In this document: positions 10,904-63,265 of the stretch, one piece after another
Layout: each line of letters opens with the position of its first letter
Position numbering within the stretch: position 1 is the first letter of the stretch
DNA from: Prorocentrum cordatum
Taxonomy: Eukaryota > Sar > Dinophyceae > Prorocentrales > Prorocentraceae
Direction of reading: 5' to 3'
NCBI GenBank assembly: GCA_963575745.1
Contig: CAUYUJ010014604.1
Span: 1 to 64,000 of the forward strand
DNA length: 64,000 nt
Notes under the pieces: generated by a model
The model's database searches: none
What the model was told of the DNA's origin: nothing
Seen by the model: the letters and a program-made list of their open reading frames with translations, nothing else
Program-made: the position numbers and the translations under genes

Positions 10904-11187
10904 ACTTTAAACGGAGAGGGTTAAAGGCGAGATGTAAATCGAGCATGCACCGCTGCCGTGCCTGGCTCAAGCCGGGCCCGGCCGAACATGTGATTGTGCC
11001 TCACCGAGGCGCACTACTCGCATCTGAGATCGGAAAAGACCTTTCTATTGAAGATGCCCCTTCTATCCTTTACTCCAGATCCCATGCTTCATCTTGCTCT
11101 CTTGCTCATGCGGTATGAGCCAAAGCCTGGGATATGGGAGCGCCTAAGGCGGAACATATATCTTGGCTTACCAGTGCGTTTTCGACT
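10904..11187 (+). repeat. 5' LTR of element 1 (284 bp)
   Basis: I compared it base by base with 28,648-28,931 and saw no difference. It begins ACTTTAAACGG and ends GTTTTCGACT, so it lacks the usual TG...CA termini. An ATATAT-like stretch lies near 11,155. The frame of ORF1 is open across its right half, with the first ATG at 11,054. Confidence 0.92.
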
Positions 11188-14100
11188 TGGTAGCGGAGCT
11201 GGCTACACTCTCGTGTGGCTGGCTCTCGCTCTAATACCCATCATCCACGGCACAACTTGGTGGACTACTACTACGGTGGAATACCATGTTGCGCCGGCTC
11301 TGCGAGGAGCGGAGCCAGTCCGCGATCGGGCTAGCGGGGCGACCCGCGAGCTCGAGACGCTCTCTCCTACCTCACTGCGCTACTTCACTCCCGACTTCCA
11401 CCAGATGCCAATCGGCAACTCGATCGAGAACGTGGTCACTCTGCGGGGCTACCCGCAGCGGGGCCACCTGCATCCCGTGCCGGTCAGGCGCCTTACGGCT
11501 ACTACGCCCGAGCCTGACAAACCACAGCCTAAACCAATCACCGAAGCCGAGATGCACATGCACTGGATCAAGATAACTATCTTCGGCATTCTATGGGTGA
11601 TAATGGGATGTGCTGTGGGCTACATGCGGCAGGGGATGGACGACACGCGTACTACCGGCCCTTCTTGGGACCCAGCCGGTACTACGCCCTTTCGCGAGTA
11701 CGTTCGCGAAGTACATGCATGGATAAACGTGACGAGCGGCAATATGACGCCACCTCAGCAAGCTGCAGCACTACAACGTGGTCTTCAAGGCCTTGCTCGT
11801 CGTATCGCCATGCAGGTCCCCTCCCAGATCATCAATTATGGTGTAAATGTCAACGGACAGCCAACGGATGCAGTTACTTATATACTTTATCTATTGAGTA
11901 CCAAATTTGAAAATCTGGAAGATGAGCGCCAGCTCAACTCTGGCACTGCCCTTATCGACTTTCGCGTCGAAAGGGGCGAGCGAATCGACTCAGTGTTAGC
12001 TCGATTCGAGATGGCCCGTGACGAGGCTAACTCTGTTGGCTTTGTCATCCCCAACTTTCAGATCCTAACGCTGATCCTTTTCAGAGCGTTAGGCGTTGGC
12101 GCGTCACGAGCCCAACACCTGCTGGAGCCCTTCAATCATCAGATGCCCAGAACGCAAGCAGACTATGATAGGCTGCTGACCAGGATGAGGAACTACGGGC
12201 ATGTTGCCGAGCGCTCTCCTGGCAACATTGCGGGCATCTTCACAGGGCACCACGCACATGCAGGTGTCTACGCCACGACTGCGGGGTCACCCGCTGGTCC
12301 TGGCGAGCCAAGTCCCTGGGCTGATTCAGCCGATATGCCCAACGAGGCCACTGCCCTCTTAGGGCAGACCGGCCAGGCATCGGCAGAGGCAGCGGAGGCG
12401 AACGCCTGGTCGAACTACACGCCGGGCGCCGCCTACACTGCAAGCCCGCCCTCGGGCACAACCCTCTGGGGCCAAGCGGAGTCATCCGCTCAAGGGTCTC
12501 AGCCACCCTCTCCGTTTGAATCTGGCACTGACACAGATACCTCATCTGACGGTGATCACAATGGCATGGTCTCTGCTGGCAATGACTATCCAGCTGATGA
12601 CACTCACCTTTCTGAACAACAAAGAGCGGAAGCCGCTTTTATGGCTTATCGCAAATCAAAACGCCGTTGGAGGCGCATTATGAAGAAACCGGTCAGAAAA
12701 GTGAGACGTGCAGTACGCCGATATTTCAAACGCTATGGAAAGGGTCGTGGCAAAGGGGGTCGCAGACGCCGTATGCATGGTAGGGGTATCACTGCTTTCC
12801 TCACGTCCTTAACTGATGTAGTTTTTGAAGAAGTTCTTATCGGAGGCAAAGGTCGGGGTCACAGGCGGACCTCTGGTAAGGGAAAAGGGCGGAGGGGTAA
12901 CCCTAGGGACGCTTCTGGCAACACTATGAAGTGTCATACATGCGGTAGTACAGAGCATTTGCGCGATCATTGCCCGAAGGGGAAAGGAAAGGGATCCGTA
13001 CATTTGGCTCAAAACTCTTTTATGGATGACATAGATTACATTGACTACGAGTTTTACGTCAATCCAGAAGCGGCTCCCGCCGCGGGCTCCTCCACGTACT
13101 ACGTGATGGCCCGCTACGCTGATGCGACCGTAGCCCTGGAAGAGTACGCGGTGACCCTCTTCGACGAGTTCCACGGCTGGGACGAAGTCGACGAGGGCGC
13201 GTTCAACGCCTGGTTCGGTCTTCCAGCGGGGCCACCCGCCGACGACGAGATCTCCGAAGCTGAGACCGTCCCGGCGACCGAGGAGGAGCTCGCCGCCGCG
13301 CTGGCACCGCAGGTGATCGGCATGCCGTTGCTGCCTGATCTTTCGCGAGCCGGCTCGGAAGCGGGAGACGCTGACGACGAAATGCGGGGCCATCCCGCAG
13401 CTTATTCTGACTCTGAAGAGGCCGAAGAGGACTATGAGGACAGGCTCCAAGAGCAGGTCGCAGAAGCGATCCAGCTCCTGAGTGCGCCAGCACATCAGCA
13501 GATGACCATGAACGACCTGCTGTCGCGCCCAGGGGCCGCAAGGCTGCGTCCATACCTGGATCCTGATATGTCGGCACCGCAGATGCTGACCGCACTCCAG
13601 GCCCTAGCGGGGCCACCCGCTGAAGCGGCGCCAGCTGCAGCAGCGGGGCTACCCGCTTGGTCTATGGACGAGTTCATGCAGGGCTGCGACCAGATGGACC
13701 TCAACGACCTCACTATGGAGCAGCTGACCGACATCGGGTACTTCCAAAGCCCGCATCAGCACGTATTCATGGTCCAGGACAGCTCAGAGGACTCGGAGGA
13801 CAGGCGCAATGCAAAGAAGAACAGACGACCATCGCCACCTCGAGATCCAGAGCACCGTCATGAAGATGAAAGGCCCATGGAACGTGGCAGTGCGTCAGCG
13901 GGGCCAACCCGCAGGAGGAGCCGTTCAGCTCCACGACGCCCTACACATGATGCATCTGGCTACCCGTACAGCACGGAGCACTCCAGAGGTGTATCCGCTC
14001 AGTACGTGCCGGAGTGGTACATCAATTGGTACCCCGGCTACCCGATGGACGTGATCCGCCACTGGTGGTCCAAGGAGCACTGCAAACGGGACGAATCTGG

Positions 14101-17100
14101 CATCATAATACGCACCAAAGGTGGCAAGACTAAAACGCCAGAGGCTTGGGACCGAAAGGCTAAGAAACAGGAGATCATCAACGATCGCAAGACATACAGG
14201 AAACAAGTATGTCAATGCGAGCCTTTCAAAGGTCACATGCGCGGCTGTCCAATGGACCGCCCCTCCAGGAGCCCTCATCACGGTGAGACCCCCTGGAACT
14301 GGTCTCATGGAGATGACGCTGGCACCGTCCACGATCCTAACAAGAAGGTCCCTGGAGGAGGAAAGCGCATTACCGAAGCCGATCGCGCCCCTATGACCGA
14401 GGAGGTTGCTGACACTGTCAGGGAAAATTGGGAACAGCTTCCTAAAGACCATCGCCTCAAAGAATGGAACCGCCGATTCCATGAAGAGGCGGGGTCACCC
14501 GCAGACTCCAGCGGAGGTGCGGGGCCACCCGCGGGCGCGGCGCCAGCCGCTGGGTCCGCGGACGAAGAGTGGATGGCTGTTGCATCTGCTGCCGGATCCG
14601 CCGCCGGTACTGAACAGACCGAACTGAACGAAGAATGGGCGGCGGAAGACGGCTCAGAGAATCCATTCCCTGATGGATGCGCCTGCTGGTACTACAGCTC
14701 CTCGGCACAGAAGTGGTTTTGCACGAGGGTACTTTACCGCCACGAAAATGGCAAGTACAAGCTGGCCATAAAAGGTAGTGCCAACATCGACCAGATGAGG
14801 CAGGTCATCCATGATCATGGCCAGCCAGAAGGCCCTCCTAAAGACCCTCCTGGTCCACCACCAGAGGACGACGAAGACATCGAACCACCTCCAGGACCTG
14901 TGGTCGACTCCTCGCCTCCACCTTCTCCTGAGAAGAGGTCTCCTTCCAAGAGCCCCGAAGGTTCACAGGGGCGTGCGAAGGCCAGAGGGATCGCCAAGAA
15001 GGACGACCCTGAGCCGGGAGAGCCTACCGGCCCGTCCGCGACGGAGAGGAGGAAGGCTTTTGCTGGACCATCAGCCCCGATGCCACCGGCTGCCCAAGGC
15101 GACGTCAAGGACGAAGATCGCGACCAGCCTAAGGCAGCCTTCCGAGGTGGCTGGACTCCAACTCTGCATCAGCCGCGCCTTGCACCACGACCAGGCTCGG
15201 CACGAATGAAAGCACAACCGAAGCCCGAGGCTGGGTTGAGGTCGGTGCGGGCAGAGGCAGCCGCCAAAGGTAAGGAGGACAAGGGCTCTGCGGGGCCACC
15301 CGCTGAAGCGGCGCCAGCTGCAGCAGCGGGGACACCCGCAGAAGGCACTCCCTCAGAAGAAGAACGCCGCAAAGCCCTCAAAGAAATTGACAACCGACAG
15401 AAACTAGCCGACGATGCGCTGGCTGACCAAGGTCACCCGCACCCTGGTGCGGGGTCATCCGCTGGAGCTGCCTCGGCAGCCGCAGCGGCGCCAGCTGCAG
15501 CAGCGGGGCCACCCGCACGTCGGCAACCAGCGTCGTCTGTTCTCAAGAACATCCCTCTGGGAGCCATTGAATATTGGCAAGGCATTGAAGGCAAAGGCCC
15601 GAAACGCACCATAAACCCACGAGTCACTCGAGATGATACAGATCGATACGCGGTCATCGATTGCCCCGATCGTCGTAACTTCGAGTGCCGTAACGTATGG
15701 GAACGTGAACAACAAGTCGTGGGCAATATGTTGCGGGACAGGCCGCCATTGCGCGTCGCGCAGCACAAGGCAGAGCTCATGAATGTCATGAAGAGGTTCA
15801 ACACAGATCCGACTCTGCCGCGCGATTGGCAAATGGCCAAGGTGTCAATATGGTTCTCTACAGCCCTACGCCATGGTCCGTATTGGAAAGATGGATTCAG
15901 CCGATACTTCGAAAAGATTGACACTTTCGATCCATACGATGGCTGGGTTGTTGTTGACGACTTGCTGGCAAATTGGACTGGTGACAATCAGTGGAAAGGC
16001 TACCAGGACATGCACGATGTGCTTATCAAGGGCAACCCTCACAGCTCATACGTGTATTGGGTGTTGCTGAACTGCTGCGAGATGATCGACAACCATGGCA
16101 TGCAGAAGGGCAGGCTCCAGATGAAATGCGTCGAGGATAGCATGACGCTACCTCCCAGATTCCGACCAAAGGCACACAGGCCACAATATTTCATCAGAGC
16201 CACGAACGGCCATAGCAGCCCAGGCATCCACTGCCCAGAGTCGCTCTATAAGCCCATCACGACATGGATGAAGGAACCAGATGACCCAGTATACTTTATC
16301 CACGGGACACAGTGGGAGCATGTTAAGGGCATCCTTGAGAATGGCCTTTCATGCCTCACACAGGACAACCCTAAGGGGCAGGGGGGGCGCCAGTTCGTTC
16401 ACGGCTGCCCCTACCTCCCGGGTGACCCGAGGATTCAGTCGGGCATCCGTCCTGACTCTGAGGTGCTCATCTTCTGCAGCATCAGCAAGATGTTGTCCAG
16501 CGGCTTCTCTTTATGGAGGTCAGCGAATGACATCGTCATGACACGGGGCCACAATGGCCGCATACCGCCCGATCATATCTTTCAGATTGTGAGCATTGCA
16601 AAATATCGGGTCGGTGAAGCCTGGTGCAATCCGCTGGCTTACGACAAATCGCGGAAGCGGGGCCAACCCGCGGACAGGATTTGCTCCGAGGACTACTTGC
16701 CACTTAAAATGTGCAACAGAGTTCTGGGTGTGATGGACGAGCACGCCATGTACCTAAAGGGCTGGACTAAGACGGGCGGTCGCCCATTCAACCTGACCAT
16801 GACCGAGCAAGACGTTGCTCCACGACCGTACCTCACACAGACAGTCCTCATGATAAACGCCCAGGAAGACGAGGTCATGCCTGAGGCGGGGCCACCCGCA
16901 GGAGCGGGGACACCCGCGGCAGACACCTCGGATGGTTCATGGCAGCAAGTGGTCACGCCAGTAGCCGCAGTAGCATCTCCTTGGAGGCCGGACCAGCAGA
17001 CATGGGTCCAGGCCCTCAACAGCTACCTGTCACCAGCCGACGTTTCTGGACTGACCGATCAGCTATACCGTGCTGACCCGTGGGCAGTGCAGGCAGGTAT

Positions 17101-20100
17101 CCAAGACGCACAGCAGAGGAACCTGCGCACTCCTGCGGGGCCACCAGGCGCCCTAGGACCACAGCCACAACGCCCTCCGCAGCAGGCTGGAGGTGCGAGG
17201 TTTGCCCCTATGGGCGGCTCCGATGGTGGCTCGCCGTTCCGGACTCCGCCGTCTGAAACGAGCGAGAACAGCTTGTGGCAAAGACTCCAGGCGATTCGCG
17301 GAAATCCAGCACTCGCGGCAGCACTCCAAGCAACCACTCCCTTTGGCACTCCGAGGGGTAGTGAAGAGGGAGCGGCTGCGGGGTCACCCGCTGGGCGAAC
17401 GCCTGCGGAGCCACCCGCTCAAGCGGGGTCACCCGCTGACGGACAGCAAGGTTCAGACTACGAACGTCGGGCAGCTAACTTAAGAGCACAGGCTACTTTG
17501 CTGCTGCAACAACAAGCTGAAAGAGTGCCCAGCCTGTTGCGGAACCGCAACATAGACGTCACAAGCCATGGCGACTTCCGACCTCTCTGGAGTTGGACTT
17601 CTGAAGATGCTCCAAACGCTGATCCCACGAATCCATATCGACAGGTGTTTCCAGGAATAGAATCACACCCGATATACGGATGGGACAATCACGGTCCAGC
17701 AGAGGCGCCGGCCATGGACGCGCCGATGTACCCTGAGTACTACGCGCAGATAAATGACACTCCTATGATTGCGGGGCCACCTGCGAACGAATACACTCGG
17801 AACTTAGCTAATGAGATGTTTCGTTTGCAGTTTACACGAGCGGTCGATGCGCAGTCTATGCCACACTACGCCTACATGCCCACGCCGACGGACCCCGAGA
17901 CCATAGTCCAGCCAGCTGGTCTCGCGGTGCCAGCCGCTATGGGCAGCATGCCAGACTACATCCGCGACGTGCACAACACGCAGCAAGCGATACTGGCATC
18001 CAGGCAGCAGGCTCGTGACAACACTAGGCTGCGCCAACAACGCGCGATCCAGAGAAGGATTGAGCGCGAGGCCCAAGCGGGGCCACCCGCGGAAGCGGGG
18101 CCACCTGCTGAACGGCCAGAAAGGCGGCCGCCACCGACGCCATATCGGGAGGGCGAAACCACGTTCGAGCGCCAAGCTCGGACTCGCCCTGACTTGCCTG
18201 CTCCAGTCATCTCAGACTACAACTTCACTCAGTGCCCAATCTGCATGGACAACTACGAGATGGGCACTACAGTGTGGAGACTGGCGTGCGGGCACTTCTT
18301 CCACGACATATGCTGGGACCGTGTTGCACAGCAGCATGTCCGCAATCAGCGGCCAGGTGCGCCGAATGAGGCCCCCTGTGCCGTATGCCGTGGACCGGGC
18401 ATAGTGATAGCACACTTCCCGTATGCTGGACAGCGCGATGCGGAGTCGGACCAAGCGCGCCAGCAGGAGAGGTACGTTGCAGATGCCCGCGAGATGCGTC
18501 GGTTACGCGAAGCAGTGGAGGCACTGGAGGCTCGAGCCGCACGATCGGCGGAGCCATCCGCACGTGCCCCAGCTGCACAGGCATACCCCTGGCCAGCGCC
18601 AGAACAAGGCATTCAGATGCCGGTCTTGCCCACGCTCCGAGCGCAAGAGCCCCCAGCTGCGGGGCCACCCGCTGAAGCGGCTCCCGCCGCTCAAGCGGGG
18701 CCACCCGCTAACGGACCTCCAAACCCAGGTTTCTTGAGGAACATGGAGGCTAACATCAGGCGGAGTGGCAGGAGCGGAGGCGGGATTCGGAGGCCAACTG
18801 GATCGACCAGGACCTCTCGAGTGGCAAGCCCGGTCAGCGCCAGAAGCCGGGCAAGCGCTGAGAGCGCAGAGGCAGCCCAGTTCCATTCCACATTCATGAT
18901 CGACACAGAGGGGCTGACCTACGTGCGTGACGATACTGACACGCTGCCACCAAGAGGCGAATGGATGTCCACGCTATCTGCAAACTATTGGGTCCTCCAG
19001 CAGGAACCGATTACTGTGGAGGAGCGCCGCCAGTACGAGCAGATGTGGTGCACCGAGCTGACCATGACTCAATGGGTTCTTGAACAGCGCCTGTTGAGGG
19101 GTACACTCGGATCGCAGATCACGTACCACACCAACGACCACACTGGCGTACAGGTCGCTCTTGCAGCGCGCAATGGGACATTCTTTCCTGATGAAGATGG
19201 TATGCCCTGTATCTCGTTCATGCTGGACATTGGTTCTAATGTGAACATCATTGGATCCAACACGGCGCGGACCTTCCAGGAGATAATGGCCAGGTTCAAC
19301 TACCGACCTGCCATCTGCACCCTGAGCAAGACCCTCTACATCAATGGTGTTGGGGAGGGCGCTGCGATATGTCGGAAGATGGGCAACTTCAAGATCGGGG
19401 TACAGTACGCCAACGAGGCGAGCCCCCGCATTGAGGAGTATGCCTCCAACATCGCAGAAGGCTCGGGCGCCAATCTCCCGGCTATCTGGGGCCTAGGGGC
19501 CATGGAGGCACGTGATACGATCATCGTGTTGAAGCCGGGCTACCAGAAGGTCATCTTCCCCAGCGGCGACTACACCCTGAAGCTGGGAAGAGGCGCCAAG
19601 GTCCTGAAGGCGAAGAAGACTCCCTCGGGACATCTCGCGATTCCCTGCGGGCTGTACGATGGGGCCAAGAGCCACACGGTCACGAACACCTTCACGATCC
19701 GCAGCAGTCGAGATGGCTACACCGAGACGGAGAACGAAGAGGACCCCGCCAGCGCGGGTCCACCCGCTGCGGCGGGGCCACCCGCTGACGCGTCAGCGGG
19801 GCCACCCGCGACGGGACAGTTCGCCAATCCGAATAGGCACGAGGACTTCGGTCGCACATCTACCAACAGCTGGACATCGACCTTCACGACCGATACGTAC
19901 ATCGTCGAGCCGTATATCGACAAGCAGCTCCTGGAGGACACGACCCGTTTGATCGTGAACAGGACGCTGAACAGCTGGTGGGAGGGCCGACAGTGTCCCG
20001 AAGGGACTTGGCACCCACCTCCTGAGAACGCGGCGATGATACGGCCACACATGAAGGCCGCCCTGAAGTCCAAGATCTTCTGGGCAGTCCAGGAGGCGGT

Positions 20101-20470: not shown

Positions 20471-20583
20471 CGGGGGCAGGCGGGCGCGCCGGCGGCGCTC
20501 GCTTGCGAAGAGAAGCCGAATACCGGCCTCCTCGCTACATACGTTGGCCGCGCTGAGGCCCGAGAGGAAAAATATCATTCAAA

Positions 20584-20715
20584 ATGTTTGTCATCGAAGA
20601 TATTCGCACAGCTTGCGCTGAACTCCGAACCCGTGGCTATATATGTGACCGGATTACCCATAATGAGGTAATGACTTCAACTATATTTGGGAAACTTGTT
20701 GGCAGGAGACTATAA
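20584..20715 (+). CDS. Short frame before the methyltransferase-like ORF (likely its frameshifted start)
   Basis: ATG at 20,584 opens 43 codons (begins MFVIEDIRTACAELRTRG) ending at TAA 20,713-20,715. The ORF2 frame takes over in the overlap at about 20,690-20,715, shifted by +1. The character (TACAELRTRG..., ...EVM...TIFGKLVG) looks like genuine element coding, so the natural N-terminus of ORF2 probably starts here and a single-base change, or a programmed shift, separates them. Confidence 0.5.
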   Translation: MFVIEDIRTACAELRTRGYICDRITHNEVMTSTIFGKLVGRRL

Positions 20716-22456
20716 TATGTTGTGGGTGGCCACACCCTCTGATTGGTACGTTCGTAAAAAGAGGGCGGGACCCCACTATCAACGTATACAAAATCTCTTG
20801 ATCAAAGCGCGTGCTCTGAGAATGCAGATTGTCATCCTGGGGCCACCCGGGTATTTCTGGAAACAGGGTCCGATCAAAGATGTTATCGAAGATTTGAAGC
20901 TGAGCATGAGACTTTGTCATTTCGGTATCAAGTTTGATCGCTCCAGTAAATATCCCAGTGGTTCTTATATACAAGTTGCTACATCTTGTCCTCATATACC
21001 GCTAAACTTATGGAGATGTACTTGTGGCTCACACAAAGAACATGATTTGGATTGGCATGGCCAAGATCAGCAACGTGCCGAGTTCCGGCATAAAACCTTG
21101 GCTATCATCACTGCACGCTTCCTTGATCAACTCAATAAAGCCAACATGATTAGGAATGAGCGGAGTGCGGTACACCTCAGTGTGTGTACGCGCGTTGACA
21201 AAAAGGTAAGACACTACGTTCAATGTCCACAAAAGGGCCCTCAATGGGACCATGTTGTTCGTAGAGTCACGACCGACCTGGACACGAATAAGATCGTTCA
21301 AGATATCAAAATCCAGGATCAGCCGACTGGGTACAATTATGTAGCTCCATTACCTGATGGGGTTACAAACATCAGTACTCGGTTGTACTGGGAGCCTCCG
21401 GCTCCAGTCCTTCACGGCGACGGTGAGTCGCGAAGGCCACGCCCAAAGCGTGTGACGATCGTCGATGACGATCGGTCTCCTCCCCCTTCGATTGAGCGTT
21501 GCCAAACGCGACCCACCAACTTTTCTGAAATTCCGCCATTTCCTGATCTAACAGCGGATCCTTCCGCAGCGGATCTCTCCGCGGAAACCGCGCTGCCCAC
21601 TGATGCCAGGATAAAACAGAAAGAAAAGCAGAAAGCTGACAAAGAGGCTGGCATCAAACCGAAGAAAATCCCGAAGAAAGTGGAAGACGGTAACGACGAT
21701 TGTGGAGAGGACCTCAAAGGGCTTGACTGCTCCACATATTTCAACGACGTTCCTCTTGATGACTCGGACTCGGACAGCGAATCAGAGGACATCTTCATGA
21801 TGTTACCGGCGGGGCAACCCGCTGACTCACATGCTGATGTCTTCTCGGTGGTCCAGTCACTATGCTACGGCAGAAACAATCAAGTGGACATGCTTGAATT
21901 ATGTGGGGGCAAGGGTGGTATATCCATATTAGCCTTCAAGAGGGGACTCTCGTCGGGCGGGAACCTTGATAAGATATCTATGGTTGACCTTGGAAACTCG
22001 GAAGTACAAAGAGCAGTCCTTCACTACCTCAAGACTTGCTTTGTCAAGATCACGATTTTGCAGCCAAACTGCAGAACTACTGGACTTCCTTCATACTTCA
22101 ATGCACAGGTCAATCATGATACGTGGCTTAAACACCACAAAGAGGACCTGCCTCACATCACGTTCTGCGGAACAGTCGCTCTATTACAAGACGACCTAAG
22201 ACGTTTCTTTCTCAGGGAACAACCAATGGGCACGCGGGTAGATGAGATCCAACCATGGAAGGAACTGGCACAACGCAAGGTCACTTGCCAAACGATTATT
22301 GATCAATGCACGACTGGTCTCAAAGATTCGTTTGGACAATACATTCGCAAGCCAACACAAATGATGGCAAACAAAGAAGAGTTGTTGGCACCTTTCAGAG
22401 GCAAGCGTTGTCCAGGTAATCATGTGCACGCCAATGCTTGCAACAAAGAATTCTAG
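20687..22456 (+). CDS. ORF2: methyltransferase-like domain of element 1
   Basis: The frame is open from a TTG at 20,687; the first in-frame ATG is 20,717. The N-terminal half is of unknown function with a Cys/His cluster (HIPLNLWRCTCGSHKEHD). A lysine- and acid-rich linker follows, then a region resembling a SAM-dependent methyltransferase fold: motif I LELCGGKGG (residue 403 on), a degenerate catalytic loop QPNCR where related elements have PPCT, then FCG and FFLREQP, and a terminal RCPGNHVH. Element 2 here has the same order with PPCT and DLEQP, so both derive from one domain. The Pro-Cys pair is broken by Asn in this copy, so catalysis is doubtful. It ends at TAG 22,454-22,456, at the edge of a repeat insertion. 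Confidence 0.65.
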   Translation: MGNLLAGDYNMLWVATPSDWYVRKKRAGPHYQRIQNLLIKARALRMQIVILGPPGYFWKQGPIKDVIEDLKLSMRLCHFGIKFDRSSKYPSGSYIQVATSCPHIPLNLWRCTCGSHKEHDLDWHGQDQQRAEFRHKTLAIITARFLDQLNKANMIRNERSAVHLSVCTRVDKKVRHYVQCPQKGPQWDHVVRRVTTDLDTNKIVQDIKIQDQPTGYNYVAPLPDGVTNISTRLYWEPPAPVLHGDGESRRPRPKRVTIVDDDRSPPPSIERCQTRPTNFSEIPPFPDLTADPSAADLSAETALPTDARIKQKEKQKADKEAGIKPKKIPKKVEDGNDDCGEDLKGLDCSTYFNDVPLDDSDSDSESEDIFMMLPAGQPADSHADVFSVVQSLCYGRNNQVDMLELCGGKGGISILAFKRGLSSGGNLDKISMVDLGNSEVQRAVLHYLKTCFVKITILQPNCRTTGLPSYFNAQVNHDTWLKHHKEDLPHITFCGTVALLQDDLRRFFLREQPMGTRVDEIQPWKELAQRKVTCQTIIDQCTTGLKDSFGQYIRKPTQMMANKEELLAPFRGKRCPGNHVHANACNKEF

Positions 22457-22599
22457 ACGCTTCGCGTATCCCCACCAGCCCGTCCAGATATGAGCCCCAG
22501 GGGAGTGGAGGTGATGAGGGAAGCGGGGGAGCATGCAGAAGAACAAAGAGCGGGTTGAGCCGCCATACGCCCCAAGAGGGGGAGGATGTAGGAGGAGTC

Positions 22600-22810
22600 G
22601 TCGTCGTCGGAGTAGGAGGAGGAAGACGAGGAGCAGGAGGAGGAGCAGGAGGAGGAGGGGGAGGAGGAGGAGGAGGAGGAGGAGGAAGATGAGGAGGAGG
22701 AGATGGAGGAGGGCGAGGACGAGGAGGGCGAGAAGGAGGAGGAGGAGGAGGAGAAGGAGGAGGCGGAGGAGGGGGAGGGGGAGGAGGGAGGAGGGAGAAA
22801 AAGAGGAGGA
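22600..22810. repeat. GGA/GAGGA microsatellite
   Basis: A nearly pure purine run of GGA, GGAA and GGGGA units. Polypurine tracts of this length can form triplexes. Open frames here (poly-Glu, poly-Arg, poly-Ser, poly-Pro) are not genes. Confidence 0.9.
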
Positions 22811-22859
22811 GGAGGAGGACAATGGCGAGCTTGGGGGCCTCTTGGGCCGTCTTTGGAGC

Positions 22860-23840
22860 CTCTTGGCGGTCCCGGGGGCCTCTTGCGCATCTCGGGGAGC
22901 CTCTTGTGGCCTCTTGGGGGTCTCTTGGGGGCCTCTTGGAGGCCTCTTGGGCGCCTCTTGGGGCCTCTTGGGGCTCTCTTGGGGCGCTCTTGGGGCGCTC
23001 TTGCGAGCTTTCGAGGCGCTCTTGGGGCCATCTTGGAGGAGATCTATCAAAGAAGGGGGGGTCCTCAGTTAGCGCTGCCCCTCTAGAGTGCCTCGAATCG
23101 CTTCTTGGGCCCTTCTTGAGGCCAAAATCTTTCCAAAACCTAAGTAAAATCAATGTTTTGTGTTTTCTCGCCTTTTCGCTCTTGGAGCCGTCTTGGGCCG
23201 TCTTGGGAGCCTCTTGGGCCTCTTGGAGGTCTCTTGGGAGCCTTTTGGAGGCCTCTTGGGCGCCTCTTGGGGCCTCTTGGGGCGCTCTTGGGGCGCTCTT
23301 GGGGCGCTCTTGGGAGCCTTCGGGGCGCTCTTGGGGCCATCTTGGAGGAGATCGATCAAAGAAGAGGGGGTCCCCAATTAGCGTTGCCCCTCTAGAGTGC
23401 CTCGAGTCGCCTCTTGGGCCCCCCAAGAGGCCAAAATCCTTCCAAAACCTAGGTAAAATCATTGTTTGTTGCTTTCTCGCCTTTTCGCTCTTGGAGCCGT
23501 CTTGGGCCATCTTGAACTCTCTTGGGGCCTCTTGGGGGTCTCTTGGCAGCCTCTTAGAGGCTTCTTGGGGGCCTCTTGGGGTCTCTCGGGGCCCTCTTGG
23601 GGCGCTCTTGGGGCGCTCTTGGGAGCCTTCGGGGCGCTCTTGGGGCCATCTTGGAGGAGATCTATCAAAGAAGGGGGGAGCTCCAATTAGGGTTGCCCCT
23701 CTAGAGTGCCTCGAAGCGCCTCTTGGGCCCCCCCAAGAGGCCAAAATCCTTCCAAAACCTAGGTAGAATCAATGTTTTGTGCTTTCTCGCTTTTTCGCTC
23801 TTGGAGCCGTCTTGAGCCATCTTGGGCGCCCTGACACCTC
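22860..23840. repeat. Three tandem ~309-bp units
   Basis: The marker CTCTAGAGTG recurs at 23,081, 23,390 and 23,699 (309 bp apart), and CTTGGAGCCG at 23,181, 23,490 and 23,800. Each unit combines reverse-oriented minisatellite with the 'ggccaaaatc..ttccaaaacct' AT-rich core seen in the flanking fields, so the unit belongs to the same cassette family. Confidence 0.88.
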
Positions 23841-23960
23841 GCGGGACGCCTCGTCCAGGTCAGTGGGGAGGGGTAAGGGGAGGGGTAAACCCCTCCCCGA
23901 AGGGAAAGAAGGGGGGTTGGCAGAGGAAACGCTCTAGACCACCTACGCCCTACAGGGCCG

Positions 23961-26699
23961 GTGGGACTAGCAAGGGCGGCACAGTATACCTACAGAATGC
24001 AGTCACTGATCGTTGATGCGGTGCAAATCGCCAAAGATCTGTTTGCTTACGGTCGCGATCCATTCGCGAATCGCGAACGCAGTTACGCGTTCGTAACAAA
24101 CAGTGCTGGCTACGACTTGGACGACCCAACAATCCAGAGACATTCAAACGGAGAAATCCTGCGACCACCATCTGGCGGTCTCGGGTGCCCTGGCTGCGCA
24201 GACAACAACTACAAACAATCACCAAGGCACAGCAGGAATCCGAAGATGTGTCGATGGTATGATGTTGAACCATACTATTGGGACTGTCCAAGCTGTAAGA
24301 AGGAATATCAGAAGAGCAATCCTCACCATACCAAGATATCTGGCCAATGCAGATTCGCCGAAAAATGGAAGCTGCCAGATAACTTTGGTCAGCCGCGCCC
24401 AGCGGGGCAAGCCGCTCCTGCGGCGCCAGCCGCGGAAGCGGCTCCAGCCGCAAACGCGGCGCCGGCCGCGAAAGCGCGCATACGCGCGCCTAGGCCGCCA
24501 CGGCCTGGTGAGGGCGATCCAACCGCAGGCGCCAGCAGCCATGACATCACCAAGGCCAAGGGGGCTTATGGTGACACCACTGGCGCTGGCAGCTCTGACG
24601 ATCACCGCAGACTGCCGCAAGTGGCAGCGAGGCGCGGACGCATGGAGGGAGGTGATCCTCCACCGCCGCCGCAGCCTCATGCAGAGCCGAGGCCAAGGCC
24701 AAGGCTTCCTGATTGGACTCGCTTCGACGTTCAGCTCAGCCTTCAAAACCTGCGCAGCTTTGACCCAGCTGTAGTGCAGCGAGAACTCCGCAAGCTTCAC
24801 TTGAGATGGTTTCATGCCAAGGAACCAAAGATGCGGATGATTCTAGCTAAGGTTGGTCTGGGTGAAACCCGTTTGAGTCTGATCAAAGGCATTTGCGACT
24901 CGTGTAGAGAATGTCGTGCCTGGGAGAAACCAGGCAACACGGCGATGCCTTCTGTGTCACTGCCAGGACGTTTCAACGAGGAAGTCGAATGTGATCTTTT
25001 CTTTTACAAACAGGAACACATTGTCTTTCACATCATCGACCGTTGTATTCGCTGGGCAGCTGGCACAGAGATTCCTGATAAGACTATGCACGCTGCTCTC
25101 GATGCCTATCACACAACTTGGATGCAACATGGCCCTGCTAAGATCCTATACTCCGATGGGGAAGGAGTGCTGAATAACGATACAGCAAAGGCCATCCTTA
25201 AATCCAAGGGAACAGAGCTTCGTATCCGAGCGCGTGGCCAGCACGCCACGACTATCGAAGCTAGGAACGGCATCCTGCGACACCTCATACACGTAATGGG
25301 AGAAGAACTGAATAGATTGAACATCCCTCTGAATTTCACTCGTCTCTTACATGAAGCCTTGTTTGCCAGCGACGCATTTACCTTCTACAACGAAGTGTCT
25401 CCGTATAATGCGCTGTATGGCAGACAACCAGCTATGCTTCCCGATTTCCCTGTCCTGGATCATGATCAGTCCGCTGAATCATCAGATCACTCAAAGGAAG
25501 AGACAATCAGGAGGGTTAGTCTGGAGGCAATCACGCAGGCCACTGCGGTTGCCAAGACGAACAGGGCTCTTCGTACGAAGACTACTGCTACGGGTGAATT
25601 TCACTACAAAGAGGGAGATCTCGTGGACTATCATCGCCCGACCACCACGAAAGACGACTGGGGTGGATGGAGTGGTCCATACCCGGTCATCCGCAACGAA
25701 CCTGACCGAGGCCAGGTCATCGTGAAGGTCGGCAATCGCGAAGTGCGAGTACAGTATCCTGACTCACGACATACGCTGTACATCGAAGCACTGATGGTCC
25801 GCGAGATAGGATCGGACAATACGGCCCTTCGGACAGTATTGGCCTTTATTGCCGGTCTGCCAGCGGGGAAACCCGCTATGACTTTCGGATACCTACCAGC
25901 GAAACAGGGCCGACTGCAGATGACTGCTGCGAGCCGGCTTTCGCCTAAGGTGCACTTGGCTCTTCAATATCTCATTCGCAACTATTTTCGCATTGAAAAC
26001 GTGGTTGCTGTACGACTTGCTAAGAGCCTGACTAAGTTGCCTGCTGCACCATATGCAGACAGCTGTACACTAGTGCACTATGATAACGATGTGACCCCTG
26101 GCTTTCATTATTATGAAGCTGATGGCACTGCCTTGAACATCTACGACATCACAGGGTCTACACATTCACGCATCATCCAGTGTCTTAAATCCAAGAAGCC
26201 GCTTGCTGGATTCGACCGAGACCTCACTAAGTTTGAGGAACTCGCTGATGGTTCACCACCAAGCGAGCCACCTCCAGCAGCTGCTCCTGAGCAGCCTCCT
26301 GCGGCGAATGATGGTCGGCTCCCGACCATCATAGAGGAAACAGAAGAGGATCTGGATGTCTTTGTCTTGGAGTCATGGTATGCTGAATTGATGGATGACA
26401 GAACACCCCTTGAAGCTGACACAGAAGAAGTCATGCACACAGTTCCGACATACATGACAGACTCACAGTGCGTGTTGGTCTCTACGACCTGCGAAGATGT
26501 GCAAGGCCACTTGCCGGTGCGGGGTCACCCGCCAGGATACGACATGGACACCTCTTACTACGTCCCTCTGTGCTCCACTGATCCGGACAGCCACTATGAT
26601 CTGGAACTCCGACGAGCACGGGAAGTACATCGAGCTTTGCTTCACAGCAGACATGTCCAAAGTCGTCCTGTCCGAGCAGCAACACCGATTGTTGGATGA
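23961..26699 (+). CDS. ORF3: integrase polyprotein of element 1
   Basis: The frame is open from 23,889; the first ATG is 23,997. It begins with a Cys-rich module (CPGC, CPSC and further Cys/His within about 75 residues), then an Ala/Pro linker with hairpin repeats. A pre-integrase zinc-binding region (LHLRWFH ... CDSCREC) at about 24,790-24,915 leads into the integrase core. The catalytic D-D-E triad is intact: Asp 345 (ECDLFF), Asp 399 (YSDGEG), Glu 433 (IEARNG). A C-terminal SH3-like part (KEGDLVDYHRP ... GPYPVI) follows. Integrase would insert element cDNA into the host genome. The frame ends inside the overlap with ORF4 (26,497-26,699), where a +1 change of frame leads into RT. Confidence 0.88.
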   Translation: MGLARAAQYTYRMQSLIVDAVQIAKDLFAYGRDPFANRERSYAFVTNSAGYDLDDPTIQRHSNGEILRPPSGGLGCPGCADNNYKQSPRHSRNPKMCRWYDVEPYYWDCPSCKKEYQKSNPHHTKISGQCRFAEKWKLPDNFGQPRPAGQAAPAAPAAEAAPAANAAPAAKARIRAPRPPRPGEGDPTAGASSHDITKAKGAYGDTTGAGSSDDHRRLPQVAARRGRMEGGDPPPPPQPHAEPRPRPRLPDWTRFDVQLSLQNLRSFDPAVVQRELRKLHLRWFHAKEPKMRMILAKVGLGETRLSLIKGICDSCRECRAWEKPGNTAMPSVSLPGRFNEEVECDLFFYKQEHIVFHIIDRCIRWAAGTEIPDKTMHAALDAYHTTWMQHGPAKILYSDGEGVLNNDTAKAILKSKGTELRIRARGQHATTIEARNGILRHLIHVMGEELNRLNIPLNFTRLLHEALFASDAFTFYNEVSPYNALYGRQPAMLPDFPVLDHDQSAESSDHSKEETIRRVSLEAITQATAVAKTNRALRTKTTATGEFHYKEGDLVDYHRPTTTKDDWGGWSGPYPVIRNEPDRGQVIVKVGNREVRVQYPDSRHTLYIEALMVREIGSDNTALRTVLAFIAGLPAGKPAMTFGYLPAKQGRLQMTAASRLSPKVHLALQYLIRNYFRIENVVAVRLAKSLTKLPAAPYADSCTLVHYDNDVTPGFHYYEADGTALNIYDITGSTHSRIIQCLKSKKPLAGFDRDLTKFEELADGSPPSEPPPAAAPEQPPAANDGRLPTIIEETEEDLDVFVLESWYAELMDDRTPLEADTEEVMHTVPTYMTDSQCVLVSTTCEDVQGHLPVRGHPPGYDMDTSYYVPLCSTDPDSHYDLELRRAREVHRALLHSRHVQSRPVRAATPIVG

Positions 26700-28542
26700 C
26701 AGCAGCGTCACAACTATGCGAGTATATGTTAGTGCTGCCTCCAAACGTGCCGTGGTCGTCAAAGAAGACGACCTACTCACGAAGGCCGACATTCAAGCGA
26801 ATCCGGTCAAAGTTTGCAAAGCCCTTTGCACAGAATTGAAGACTTGGCTTGACAACAAATGCTTCCAGATGACTGACTTGAGCAAAGCGTCGAACATCAT
26901 GACTTCACGCTATGTATACAAATGGAAGTTTGTCAAGAACGAGAAGGGCGAAATGGGACGGACGATCAGGTTACGCTTGGTACTTCGTGGCTTCATGGAC
27001 ATTGAAGCCTTCGACGTCGAAACCTTCTCTGGCACGGCAAGGAGGTCAAACCAGAGATTGCTCGCAAGTTCTGCTGCATGCAACAAAGCTTGGATCATCG
27101 CTTCCCTGGACATCAACATGGCTTTCTTGAAGGGACTGACCTATGGCGAGCTCGCCGCGGCAACTGGCGAGAAAGAGCGTGTGGTGTGCTTCACACTACC
27201 TCCTGGGTCAGCAGCTGTCCTTCGCACATTGCCAGGCTTTGAGTCATATGACGAATCAAAGCATTGTCTTCGGTGCCTCAAGCCGGGGACTGGCACGAAG
27301 GATGCTCCCAGGGCATTCTCGCTGAAGCTCAGGTCCATCACCAGGAGCTTTGGACTACAGCCTACTTCATACGATGAAGAGTTCGAGATGAGTTCAAACC
27401 TCTTGACAGCCAAACACGTTGATGACATCAATATGACTGGGAAGGAAGATTCCATTGACAAGTACGTCAAATGTGTTGAAGATACGTTTGGAAAGTGCAA
27501 ACTGAACAAGCACACATACACAAATTGTGCCGTTCGGTACAACAAGACCGATGATGGGAGCGTCACTCTTGATCAGGACGAATACATCAAACAACTTCGT
27601 CCTATCACACATCCAGAGCTCACAGGCGCTGATCCTGAGAGCAAAGCGACAAAGACGATTTCTGATATGTTCGTCAGTCTTCGTGGCGCTCTAGCCTATG
27701 CGTTGATCACGCAGGTATGGCTGATGGTCTATGTTGTTTCACTGCAACGTATCCAGGAACCGACAAACATCCAGGTACGACGACTGAACGCGGTTACCAG
27801 GAAATTGCAGGCAGGTCCGAAGAAGATCGTGTATCAAGCTATGACTCCAACAGGAGAGGTCGACCTGCATAGCGATTCTGGCTATCGTCGTCTCAACGGA
27901 GATGAAGACGACGAAGTCAAAGGCTACGGTATCCGCGGGGCTAACCTGCTGAGGCGTGGCCACACGCAAGCGGGGAAACCCGTCGTGCACCTGGTGGACG
28001 CATACTGCAAGTCTCATCGACTGCAGGTGCGTTCGAGCTACTCTGCGGAAACACTGGCAGCAGCCCACAACTTGGAAGACTGCTACCCGACCATTGTAAC
28101 GCTCCACGAGCTACACTCGGGACCATTGACCCCCACACAGTTGAAGAACATATTGGAAATGGGTGGTCTATGTATCAAAGTCACTCTGACTATTGATGCC
28201 GAGTCTGTCTTCAAGTCTTTGTCTAGCAAAGATCTGAAGAAGCCCACAGAATGTACTCTGCTTGGGCACATCAGCTGGATCCGCCAGATGATGGAGCGCG
28301 GAATCGTTGAAAGCGTCCAATGGTGTGACACGCGGGATATGACTGCCGATGGTCATACCAAAGGTAGTATTGACCGCGCGTTGCTCCTACAGGTAATGGC
28401 CGGTCAGCAATCCTTCAAGCACGAGCTGAAGAAACATACTCCGTATAGGGCGGGCAGGTCGTCTCAGGACGGCCCTGCCTCCCGAGCTAGCGGGGAAACC
28501 CGCACGCAGGTGCGCTTTAGTAGCGAGGAAACTCGCCGGTAG
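26497..28542 (+). CDS. ORF4: reverse transcriptase and RNase H of element 1
   Basis: Copia-type RT (RVT_2). First catalytic Asp in SLDINMAFLKG (residue 205), the second motif is HVDD (residues 307-310) where yeast and plant copia have YVDD. RNase H follows with HSDSGY, SAETLAAAHN, TIDAES and a final Asp in TADGHTKG, so the D-E-D-D set is present. The beginning of the frame overlaps ORF3 by about 200 bp. Genuine coding in this frame starts around 26,560-26,600 (SDEHGKYIELCFTADMS), so the listed start is only where the frame opens. Three hairpins of the GCGGG family, two in the variant form GCGAG-GNNA-CTCGC, sit at its 3' end (28,490-28,555). Confidence 0.88.
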   Translation: MCKATCRCGVTRQDTTWTPLTTSLCAPLIRTATMIWNSDEHGKYIELCFTADMSKVVLSEQQHRLLDDSSVTTMRVYVSAASKRAVVVKEDDLLTKADIQANPVKVCKALCTELKTWLDNKCFQMTDLSKASNIMTSRYVYKWKFVKNEKGEMGRTIRLRLVLRGFMDIEAFDVETFSGTARRSNQRLLASSAACNKAWIIASLDINMAFLKGLTYGELAAATGEKERVVCFTLPPGSAAVLRTLPGFESYDESKHCLRCLKPGTGTKDAPRAFSLKLRSITRSFGLQPTSYDEEFEMSSNLLTAKHVDDINMTGKEDSIDKYVKCVEDTFGKCKLNKHTYTNCAVRYNKTDDGSVTLDQDEYIKQLRPITHPELTGADPESKATKTISDMFVSLRGALAYALITQVWLMVYVVSLQRIQEPTNIQVRRLNAVTRKLQAGPKKIVYQAMTPTGEVDLHSDSGYRRLNGDEDDEVKGYGIRGANLLRRGHTQAGKPVVHLVDAYCKSHRLQVRSSYSAETLAAAHNLEDCYPTIVTLHELHSGPLTPTQLKNILEMGGLCIKVTLTIDAESVFKSLSSKDLKKPTECTLLGHISWIRQMMERGIVESVQWCDTRDMTADGHTKGSIDRALLLQVMAGQQSFKHELKKHTPYRAGRSSQDGPASRASGETRTQVRFSSEETRR

Positions 28543-28647
28543 CGAGGCTACTCGCGCGCCCTTGCCTTGTAGGCAGCCGCTGTTGCCTAGCACTGTTTTT
28601 TCCGCGTAATGTAGAAATTCGGTGCTTGCTCGTCTCCTCCCCCTCCA

Positions 28648-28931
28648 ACTTTAAACGGAGAGGGTTAAAGGCGAGATGTAAATCGAGCATGCACCGCTGC
28701 CGTGCCTGGCTCAAGCCGGGCCCGGCCGAACATGTGATTGTGCCTCACCGAGGCGCACTACTCGCATCTGAGATCGGAAAAGACCTTTCTATTGAAGATG
28801 CCCCTTCTATCCTTTACTCCAGATCCCATGCTTCATCTTGCTCTCTTGCTCATGCGGTATGAGCCAAAGCCTGGGATATGGGAGCGCCTAAGGCGGAACA
28901 TATATCTTGGCTTACCAGTGCGTTTTCGACT
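28648..28931 (+). repeat. 3' LTR of element 1
   Basis: Identical to the 5' LTR across 284 bp. The bases just upstream (28,630-28,647) are pyrimidine-rich (ctcgtctcctccccctcca) where a purine tract is expected as the plus-strand primer. A purine run GGAGAGGG lies just inside the LTR (28,657-28,664). Confidence 0.92.
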
Positions 28932-54445: not shown

Positions 54446-55700
54446 ATGTTCACGTGTCCCACGACCCCCCCAGGAACTCTGAGACCACCCGGAGTGCATG
54501 GTGAAGAGGTGGTTTGGGGTTCTTCTTCGCGCGGATTTCAACAACTTACAGTCGGAATCACGCAGTAGAACCATCACATAGGACATTGGAAATTGAAATT
54601 GGCGCAGGGAGCAGCAAGCCTAATCCTAATCCACGCAGCCTGAAGGCCCCAACGGATTGTCTTATCTATGTGTGTGATTTCTGCGTGTTGGCGTTCTCTT
54701 TCGGAGGCTTCCACATCCGAGCCCACATTGATGCAGTCCACTTCCACGTGAAGGGGGCAATGAAAAATCCAGACACCGTTTTGATGATGATCATCTTAGT
54801 TTCCAGATGTGCCAGGCAACACCATATTGTTCGATACGGTCATTGAAGACACATTCAAGGGACGTTGTGCGCTCACAGTCACGATTGGAGCAATGCCGCC
54901 AGTTTCTCGCGAATTCAGACCCCAGATGCATTGATGCCAAAAGTCAGCTTGTTATGGCATGTTGTATGGCATAGTACACTTGAACAGGGGGGCGATTCGC
55001 GCATGGCACGAGGCCTGTTTGTGTATACATATTTGCCGAACGATTTGCTGTGATTCCGCACACTTTGAAAATGTCCAACCAGAGCGATATTGGGGCAAGA
55101 TTGCAAGGAGTGCCGAGTGTTAAGAAAAGGAGGTGGAGTGATGGGGACGATCGGAGTGACGAATTGAGGACAGTGCCGACTGGGAAGTGAAGGCAGGGAC
55201 CTGCAGAGAAATGAAATAAATGACGGACAAGGTGAGTGAAAGACAGAAAGAATGACCGAAGGTGAAACAGACGTCGCCGGCTTCCGCGGCAGACAGATCG
55301 GCATCCAGAAGCAGCGTCGAGAATGTGTTCGCATGTGGCAGGAGATTAATTGAAGTACGCGCCGTGTTTATCCGTGCGCGCGGCCAACAAATGTGCATAC
55401 GACACGAATGCCGATAGCAGTGGCGCCCAGCCCAGCCCGTTCCATGACAGTCATGCTTAGCTCAGAACAGCCTGATTAGGACAATTCGGCGCGTTCCGTC
55501 CATTTCAGAAATTCTCATTGCGGCGCAGCCCCGTTGGGCTAAGCCCAGCCCAGTTCATTCAAGATCATTCCAACGCACCCCTGCTTTGTCCAGACCGCTT
55601 CCATCAACTTTATTTAATCGCTTCGCTCATTCCGCCGGCCCATAATGTCACACCGTGGTCGCCTGTCCGAGTGGTCGTTTGCAGTGTGGAGCTGCGGCGT
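54445..55700. other. AT-richer stretch, no convincing gene
   Basis: The longest plus-strand frame (54,514-54,846, 110 codons) has a weak C2H2-like spacing (YVCDFC...HIRAHIDAVH) but no supporting context. Nothing else recognisable. Confidence 0.4.
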
Positions 55701-57571: not shown

Positions 57572-57586
57572 GTCCTCCCAGGTGCC

Positions 57587-62023: not shown

Positions 62024-62038
62024 CAGAGGGTGCTGTCC

Positions 62039-63265
62039 CTAGCTCGAGGCCCCCGCGCCAGCCGCGGGCGCCAGCTCCAGCACCGCCTCGTCCACGACCG
62101 CGGACGTCTCAGCCTCGTCCTTCATGGCGCTGCACTGTGTGATCCCGACAATGTCCGGGAGGCTGCGTGGGATGTTCTGCCACCACGTCGGAGTCGTCAC
62201 GTTGATGGCGAGGTGACCACTGGGCATCTTCCGGCACTGGAAGACGTGATGTGAGATCTTCGGCAGCATCAGGTATCCGTTACCGCAGTCGATGAGGGCG
62301 TTGGTATGATCAGGCCCCAGCACGTCCATGCCGATCAGCAGGGGCACCTCGTTGTCCATGATCGAGATCTCGATCTTCTCCTTGTCGTCACCGAGAAAGA
62401 TGGCACCCGTCATGGTGCCCATCGAGCTCTTGCGCTTGCCGTCGCCGAAAGTGAAGTGCCGCGTCCGTTCCACCACGTCGAACAGCATGCTGTGCTTCTC
62501 CTCCATGTCGTAGATGAGGTGCTCGGCCATCGTCACACCGATGAGGCTCCTCGTGGCGCCGCAGTCAAGGATCGCCCAGACGCCGCCCGCGTCGTCCAAG
62601 AGGAGCACCAGGTCGCCGAGCTCTAGAAGCGCAAACGAGGTCGTCTCGTTGGGCTGTCGCTTGCCGCGGTCCTTCGTCCTCTCGGGGCAACCCTTCGCCT
62701 GGTGTCCGAACTTGCGGCAAGCTAGACATCTCATCCTACGCCTGTCACGCGCAGGTTCTTGACCACCGTCCTGACGAGAAGATCGTTGACCATCGCGTAG
62801 TTGTCGAGGACGAGGGGGCCCCTCTGCCAGTCGAGGAGCGAGCACGGGGTAGTATTCCCTTGCCACCTTGACCTTCCTAATGAGGTCCCTCGCGCCCTTG
62901 AAGTTCCTGCCCAGCTGCCTGAACTCCGCGTAGATGCCGTCCTCGTAGTCGTCGACAAGCTCGGAGTCTTCGAAGAGGGTCGAGTCCTCCTCGTCCGCTA
63001 AGTTCACCAGCTGGTCCACAATGTCCGCAATCGCGGACCTGTCCTCGAAGTCGTAGTCCTCCTGCTCGGCCTCCTCGACCTCGCCGAAGAACCCCGCGCG
63101 CCTGTCCTTCTTCTCGCGACCCCCGTCGATCTCCTTTAGCGCCTCCAGCGGGTACCTCGTGCACAGCGCCTTGTACGCACTGCCGTATTCGTAGTCGCCC
63201 GCCGCCGTAGCGGTGATCCCGCCCCTGGCCACAGGGCTCAGGCGCGATCGGCGAGGTACCACCAC
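62039..63265 (-). CDS. Gag C-terminus, zinc knuckle and protease of element 2
   Basis: After the frameshift from the gag ORF come an acidic stretch, a CCHC knuckle (CLACRKFGHQAKGC), then a retropepsin with DCGAT in place of D-S/T-G-A and a conserved GMDVLG turn later. Catalytic Asp is kept. Ends in TAG (62,039-62,041) followed by G, after which the pol ORF continues in the same frame, so a single stop separates gag-protease from pol. Confidence 0.8.
   Translation of the reverse strand: MVVPRRSRLSPVARGGITATAAGDYEYGSAYKALCTRYPLEALKEIDGGREKKDRRAGFFGEVEEAEQEDYDFEDRSAIADIVDQLVNLADEEDSTLFEDSELVDDYEDGIYAEFRQLGRNFKGARDLIRKVKVAREYYPVLAPRLAEGPPRPRQLRDGQRSSRQDGGQEPARDRRRMRCLACRKFGHQAKGCPERTKDRGKRQPNETTSFALLELGDLVLLLDDAGGVWAILDCGATRSLIGVTMAEHLIYDMEEKHSMLFDVVERTRHFTFGDGKRKSSMGTMTGAIFLGDDKEKIEISIMDNEVPLLIGMDVLGPDHTNALIDCGNGYLMLPKISHHVFQCRKMPSGHLAINVTTPTWWQNIPRSLPDIVGITQCSAMKDEAETSAVVDEAVLELAPAAGAGASS

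Follow-up and report, generated by a model that had tools for sequence, protein, structure and literature searches.

Repeated hairpins in a Copia-type retrotransposon of Prorocentrum cordatum: a candidate cis-acting RNA signal

The first 64,000 nucleotides of contig CAUYUJ010014604.1 from the dinoflagellate Prorocentrum cordatum (assembly GCA_963575745.1, forward strand), referred to here as the window, contain a Copia-type retrotransposon of about 18 kb, bounded by long terminal repeats (LTRs) and spanning positions 10904-28931. From just past its 5′ LTR to just before its 3′ LTR this element carries about 50 similar hairpins of 14-15 nt, which raises the question of why so short a palindrome should recur so often within coding sequence. 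The copies are genuine and oriented, occur within the window only in this element, match between their arms, and are constrained as nucleotide sequence more than as encoded peptide. We infer that the hairpins work as RNA, and consider it probable that they represent a sense-strand stem-loop motif under selection. The fuller proposal, of a repeated cis-acting stem-loop overprinted on coding sequence and most likely serving as a packaging signal bound by Gag, is made more cautiously, as one whose likelihood falls a little short of even.

Number, loop and orientation of the hairpins

A scan for GCGGG-N(3-6)-CCCGC found 30 sites, from 11334 to 28490, every one between the LTRs, and no such perfect core elsewhere in the window. 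The initial annotation had reported the hairpins to be absent from the flanks and from a second Copia-like element (55610-63265, minus strand, with an RVT_2 match), and neither indeed contains a perfect core. Of the 28 perfect-stem coordinates that it gave, 27 were right and one, "20214", is actually 20204; the perfect sites at 13384 and 19754 were missing from its list, and its 19 stem variants are all there, as described or nearly so. Under looser definitions, matches to at least 12 of the 14 consensus positions number 39 in the element and one in the remaining 46 kb, while hairpins anchored on GCG, with inner pairs of whatever kind and G-U included, amount to 66 in the 17.7 kb scanned as the element (some of them chance or low-complexity cases) against 13 in the other 46 kb. 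The second Copia-like element was also considered as the bearer of a hairpin family of its own, and this was rejected: its three open reading frames (ORFs) hold 15 hairpins against a shuffle mean of 9.2 (maximum 17), and the commonest stem occurs twice. No Rfam family scored above its gathering score in 10904-28931.

ORF1 has 26 perfect cores, compared with a mean of 1.8 and a maximum of 5 in synonymous-codon shuffles (60 per ORF), and a mean of 0.1 and a maximum of 2 when whole codons were shuffled; codon-preserving shuffling was the check that the initial annotation had named for its own claim, and the excess survives it. The loops of the element's 26 perfect tetraloop copies comprise GCCA (12), GTCA (5), GCTA, GACA and GAAA (2 each) and GCGA, GCAA and TCCA (1 each), with a pyrimidine as third base in 22, so that the loop is mainly GNYA. 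The earlier description of the loops as mostly G..A holds, for 34 of the 42 fully paired GCG tetraloop hairpins, but their assignment to the GNRA type does not, since this form accounts for only 4 of the 26 perfect tetraloops.

Orientation is strongly biased. Where a tetraloop closes a 5-bp stem that is paired throughout, the element has 41 sense GNNA loops against 3 mirror-image TNNC loops, and 55 against 3 when G-U pairs and 5-nt loops are included. The bias points to action as RNA, to copying via RNA, or partly to duplication of copies in the same direction. The loop also recurs on other stems: seven hairpins of at least 5 bp in the ORFs join a GNCA loop to a non-GCG stem, against one in mirror form and two in the rest of the window, and synonymous shuffles gave a mean of 1.9, with 1 of 200 reaching 7. 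This provides modest evidence that the loop may be read independently of the stem.

Base pairing, encoded peptide and placement

Three tests were made on sites chosen without reference to pairing, namely those matching GCG-N8-[CT]GC, a near-consensus set, and in-frame AxPxA peptides. Within the element, 52 of the 61 GCG-N8-[CT]GC sites pair at both inner positions, against 25.7 (at most 36) when right arms were shuffled; without the consensus class 23 of 32 still pair (9.2, at most 18), and with 5-nt loops 14 of 25 (4.5, at most 11). Outside the element the inner positions pair at 6 of 49 and at 7 of 41 sites. The most conservative of the tests made, given that some copies are duplicated, was that on the 44 distinct near-consensus sequences, which contain 21 compensated pairs where 3.9 were expected (maximum 13) and so bear out the compensatory stems initially reported. 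Over all 71 near-consensus sites, a set that includes chance matches and out-of-register copies with 5-nt loops, 26 arm changes are compensated and 13 give G-U pairs.

The in-frame AxPxA peptides of ORF1-3 carry a standard inner pair in 31 of 33 cases. Their second and fourth residues are G and P in 15, A and A in 10, E and S in 2, and other combinations in 6; the coupling, seen in 27 of the 33, is explained by base pairing. In the 25 AGxPA peptides, the glycine codon is GGG in 23, although GGG makes up 15% of glycine codons elsewhere, the third bases are G in Ala-1 and C in Pro-4 in 22, and the third codon has A as its last base in 24, while the residue that it encodes varies between P, S, T, L, Q and K. 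Synonymous sites are thus nearly fixed while changes in the loop alter the residue, and the constraint therefore lies on the nucleic acid more than on an AGPPA peptide; constraint on the protein would predict the reverse. It had been claimed that the hairpins occur in all three frames, which is true, but the distribution is far from balanced, with 44 of 58 in phase 0, 6 in phase 1 and 8 in phase 2. We attribute the preference for the AGxPA phase to the first two codon bases of A-G-x-P-A, which already give four of the five pairs, and to 18-nt tandem steps, which preserve the frame. With synonymous sites frozen, residue 3 variable and 14 of 58 hairpins outside phase 0, the further claim that no single peptide explains them is largely upheld.

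The hairpins are placed along the element as follows.

11309-11347, plus strand: hairpins GCGGA-GCCAG-TCCGC (11309) and GCGGG-GCGA-CCCGC (11334), near the 5′ end.
11443-20418, plus strand: hairpin field of ORF1, with most copies, largely in phase 0 (AGxPA) and often in 18-nt tandem.
21554-21822, plus strand: ORF2 hairpins at 21554 and 21569 (GCGGA/TCCGC; loops TCCT and TCTC, not G..A).
21809, within 21554-21822, plus strand: ORF2 hairpin GCGGG-GCAA-CCCGC.
24402-24487, plus strand: array of five units in ORF3 at 18-nt spacing, with loops GCAA, GCCA, TCCA, GCCG and CATA; the first unit has a mismatch.
25863-25876, plus strand: perfect hairpin GCGGG-GAAA-CCCGC in pol sequence, without an indel.
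26501-26532, plus strand: two hairpins in tandem at 18-nt spacing, GCAAG-GCCA-CTTGC (read as QGHL) followed by GCGGG-GTCA-CCCGC (read as RGHP).
27935-27983, plus strand: trio in the RNase H region, GCGGG-GCTAA-CCTGC, GCGTG-GCCA-CACGC and GCGGG-GAAA-CCCGT.
28490-28555, plus strand: trio at the 3′ end, one GCGGG/CCCGC and then two GCGAG/CTCGC; the last has the third base of the ORF4 stop codon as its first base and is located in the 3′ untranslated region (UTR).

The two hairpins at 11309 and 11334 possibly lie in the 5′ UTR, because an in-frame ATG follows at 11405, though further in-frame ATGs occur upstream of them at 11054, 11084 and 11108. With region limits set partly by eye, there are three hairpins (two overlapping) in the 217 nt upstream of the 11405 ATG, and three in the 247 nt at the 3′ end; six linker regions have densities of 3.6 to 5.9 per kb, against 2.5 per kb in gag, 1.5 in ORF2, 1.0 in the integrase-like stretch and 1.7 in the reverse transcriptase (RT)/RNase H region. 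No hairpin of the family falls in the Tpt1 (691 nt, 15860-16550), RING (171 nt), protease (440 nt) or nested (1504 nt) stretches. This density pattern fits a signal put where the protein permits.

A possible packaging signal and its rivals

Comparison with related proteins gives some view of how individual sites have changed. A search with the protein of the RT ORF reported 71 homologues among 7999 scored candidates, Polarella and Symbiodinium proteins among them. Alignments are ungapped at site 25863 in all five relatives that cover it and at site 27935 in 16 of 16; the RGAN encoded at 27935 occurs in distant relatives too, so that this copy may be partly due to chance. Site 27970 lies in a loop of variable length, equal in P0001, P0002, P0004 and P0007 among others and longer in most. 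The QGHL and RGHP of the pair at 26501/26519 recur at the matching place in homologue P0051 (47% identical over the stretch), which at the 26501 site is longer by 12 residues and there includes a second QGHL, a pattern compatible, at the peptide level, with conserved hairpins plus a gained unit. Peptides of the kind sought were found at plausible sites in P0001, P0002 and P0051, and as single strings elsewhere in P0023, P0033 and P0050; the alignment of AGKPA in P0001 with SGETR at 28490 is weak (E 0.033) and was not used as evidence. The end of ORF1 matched two P. cordatum gene models at the protease stretch (one at 108/109 residues), and ORF3 gave one reported match. Searches of viral contigs yielded no match to a 22-nt pattern and no confirmed relative for alignment A1, and searches of genome contigs with the RT protein and with A1 likewise yielded no confirmed relative, records near the window being possibly excluded from them.

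A selected, strand-specific hairpin is favoured because the loops are in the sense orientation, the stems are compensated, the synonymous sites are frozen, and length is constant at two pol sites. The initial annotation had left the choice between a micro-element and a selected RNA structure; of these, a strand-specific RNA hairpin is the better supported, and the evidence speaks against a DNA micro-element able to insert in both orientations. Spread through RNA or cDNA and local duplication of blocks may have contributed. On the mechanism that we propose, each copy of the motif, with its 5-bp stem (GCGGG/CCCGC in most cases) and its GNNA loop (usually GNYA), would be bound by the Gag of the element or by a further RNA-binding protein that it encodes, and this binding would select and condense the 18-kb RNA. 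Additional copies would come from point changes at positions where the protein tolerates them, and from duplication of 18-nt units or small blocks in linkers. It is tempting to go further and to envisage a genome-wide RNA code written over the polyprotein, in which the element's protein reads some 50 GNYA-loop hairpins to recognise, package or condense an unusually long RNA. Substitutions and small duplications would add copies and decay would remove them, with turnover of the motif at a maintained density; we consider this a tentative possibility, somewhat less likely than not. That Gag is specifically the protein which selects and condenses the RNA through these hairpins is suggested by analogy; it is the likeliest role, though taken by itself less probable than not.

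Very short GC-rich hairpins in many copies are also familiar as the mini-palindromes and double-hairpin elements of organelles, where they lie mainly in non-coding DNA. The closest known mode of action would be that of the dispersed packaging signals of RNA viruses and of hepatitis B virus pregenomic RNA, for which PMC6281560 gives the MS2 loop motif as (x)xYA. Satellite tobacco necrosis virus and parechovirus provide further examples. As in the signals described in that paper, many short stem-loops with variable stems and a common loop motif run through a coding genome, and the GNYA of most perfect loops here is like the loop of MS2; the differences are that the host is an LTR retrotransposon and that the stems are near-identical in sequence, and the resemblance is one of sequence. 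The palindromic elements of Rickettsia (PMC10969869) are likewise repeated inside reading frames, but they are of about 150 bp, lie in unrelated bacterial genes, and each provide an ORF with a conserved peptide, whereas the unit here is of 14-15 nt, is confined to one element, with no spread through unrelated genes within the window, and encodes a peptide variable at residue 3. Structured cis-acting RNA is also present in the genomes of Ty3, Ty1 and retroviruses (PMC11381356); in the element described here, a single motif recurs throughout the internal region. Among the matches listed, which covered open-licence papers only, none dealt with such a hairpin family, and the word 'hairpin' is absent from the accessible text of two dinoflagellate papers (PMC11453091 and PMC5890265). 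An element with so many nearly identical hairpins would offer a direct test of whether LTR retrotransposons use dispersed packaging signals, since copies, loops and spacing can be counted and there is one protein to assay.

Several observations weigh against a selected RNA signal. Some of the copy number stems from duplication: a block of three hairpins is repeated at 13605, 15288 and 18657, the outer copies agreeing with the middle one (15288) at 49/64 and 52/64 positions (77% and 81%), and when the perfect tetraloop copies are compared in pairs, 7 of the 325 comparisons show flanks at least 60% alike. With copies partly related in this way, the shuffle tests overstate significance. In the mixed set of 71 near-consensus sites, 37 arm changes are unpaired; the G..A loop is missing in 8 of the 42 GCG tetraloop hairpins with full Watson-Crick stems; and among non-GCG stems, GNRA hairpins are only weakly in excess (4 against a mean of 1.6, reached in 11 of 200 shuffles) and GNTA hairpins show no excess over shuffles. 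Local folding with 75 nt of context on each side gave a mean pairing probability above 0.5 in only 15 of 30 perfect stems; we guess that neighbouring copies compete with one another. The sought peptides are absent from 65 of the 71 RT homologues. The hairpin-free domain stretches are short and the numbers small, and the Pfam zf-CCHC match at 12929-12979 scores 14 bits, under the curated cut-off of 20.8.

The chief rival is spread during reverse transcription of a palindrome of 14-18 nt that copies itself within the element, most plausibly by template switching or self-priming on RNA or cDNA, and has no selected function; it would be a very small selfish unit inside another selfish element. The borders of the repeat speak for it. 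In the 26 perfect tetraloop copies, the arms have 2 bits of information, the positions next to them 0.41 and 0.22 bits and those beyond less than 0.8, and 40 flanking bases are on average 0.33 identical over 325 pairs of copies, so that the shared unit is the hairpin itself and the flanks are mostly dissimilar. Away from the hairpins, three is the highest number of occurrences of any 10-mer. Under a broader definition (G-U pairs, 5-nt loops), the 55 hairpins fall into 34 clusters, of which 20 consist of one hairpin, and 18 nt is the commonest short spacing. Self-copying would explain these sharp borders and the block duplications, copying via RNA would preserve the sense orientation, and the 12 residues that P0051 has in excess, with its second QGHL, would suit a unit gained through duplication or insertion. 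It does not, however, account for the lack of any insertion relative to relatives at 25863 and 27935, for the flanks and a nested insert that are without a perfect core, or for non-GCG stems with the same loop type and coupled stem changes, which simple copying does not predict. On balance we regard this explanation as unlikely.

Arms might instead be kept matched, after spread by duplication, by hairpin-templated mutation, that is, by quasi-palindrome correction through strand switching in replication or reverse transcription. This would yield compensated stems without selection, and block duplication is indeed observed; but it leaves unexplained why the ends of the G..A loop are mostly fixed while its middle bases are free, as well as the orientation bias and the confinement to one element, and it appears improbable.

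A selected AGPPA-like peptide repeat, such as a flexible linker or cleavage site, with the palindrome as its by-product, is less credible again. The codons of Ala-Gly-x-Pro-Ala are self-complementary at four of five pairs, 44 of the 58 hairpins are in that phase, the Tpt1, RING and protease stretches are free of hairpins, and the recurrence of QGHL and RGHP in P0051 is also expected from it. Against this stand third positions near-fixed in defiance of background usage beside a variable residue 3, residues 2 and 4 that change together, in keeping with base pairing, in 27 of the 33 AxPxA peptides, and 14 of 58 hairpins in other phases, with one in the 3′ UTR. The sites ascertained by peptide, together with codon usage, largely refute the peptide as sole cause. 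Chance is still easier to dismiss: the element is GC-rich (51-62%) and short hairpins are common in such coding sequence, but the codon-preserving shuffles of ORF1 (26 against 1.8) and the near-consensus counts inside and outside the element (39 against 1) rule it out for practical purposes.

The host retrotransposon

The element has two direct LTRs and a short target duplication, CACGG, on both outer sides, and since the two LTRs are identical, a recent insertion is suggested. Its type is given by a Ty1/copia reverse transcriptase in ORF4 (PF07727 RVT_2, 2.8e-11). Features other than the hairpins are as follows.

10904-11187, plus strand: 5′ LTR, 284 bp, 100% identical to 28648-28931, with no perfect core hairpin inside.
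11188-11199, plus strand: putative primer binding site TGGTAGCGGAGC, directly adjoining the 5′ LTR.
12929-12979, plus strand: Gag-type CCHC zinc knuckle, CX2CX4HX4C by eye, corresponding to the sub-threshold Pfam zf-CCHC match.
15854-16549, plus strand: Tpt1/KptA RNA 2′-phosphotransferase domain in ORF1 (PF01885, 1.6e-17).
22457-23960, plus strand: nested low-complexity and tandem-repeat stretch, with no perfect core hairpin.
28648-28931, plus strand: 3′ LTR, 284 bp, 100% identical to the 5′ LTR.

The putative primer binding site resembles what we take to be the complement of an initiator-tRNA end. No Pfam match over the curated cut-off was found in ORF2 (20687-22456), which lies between the protease and integrase-like parts, and ORF3 had no Pfam integrase match; ORF3 does align with the sequence upstream of the RT in relatives. 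ORF3 and ORF4 overlap in different frames at 26497-26699, where relatives such as P0004, P0005 and P0074 have one frame; recoding, a small indel or a fault in the assembly may lie behind the overlap. Although the LTRs are identical, the coding part is also broken by the stretch at 22457-23960, which consists of a GAGG-rich segment and three copies of a unit of about 300 bp at 309-bp spacing, and which may have been inserted recently or be intron-like. The Tpt1/KptA domain is a surprising passenger in an LTR element, and the same ORF1 polyprotein contains a RING finger at 18230-18391 (PF13639, PF13923).

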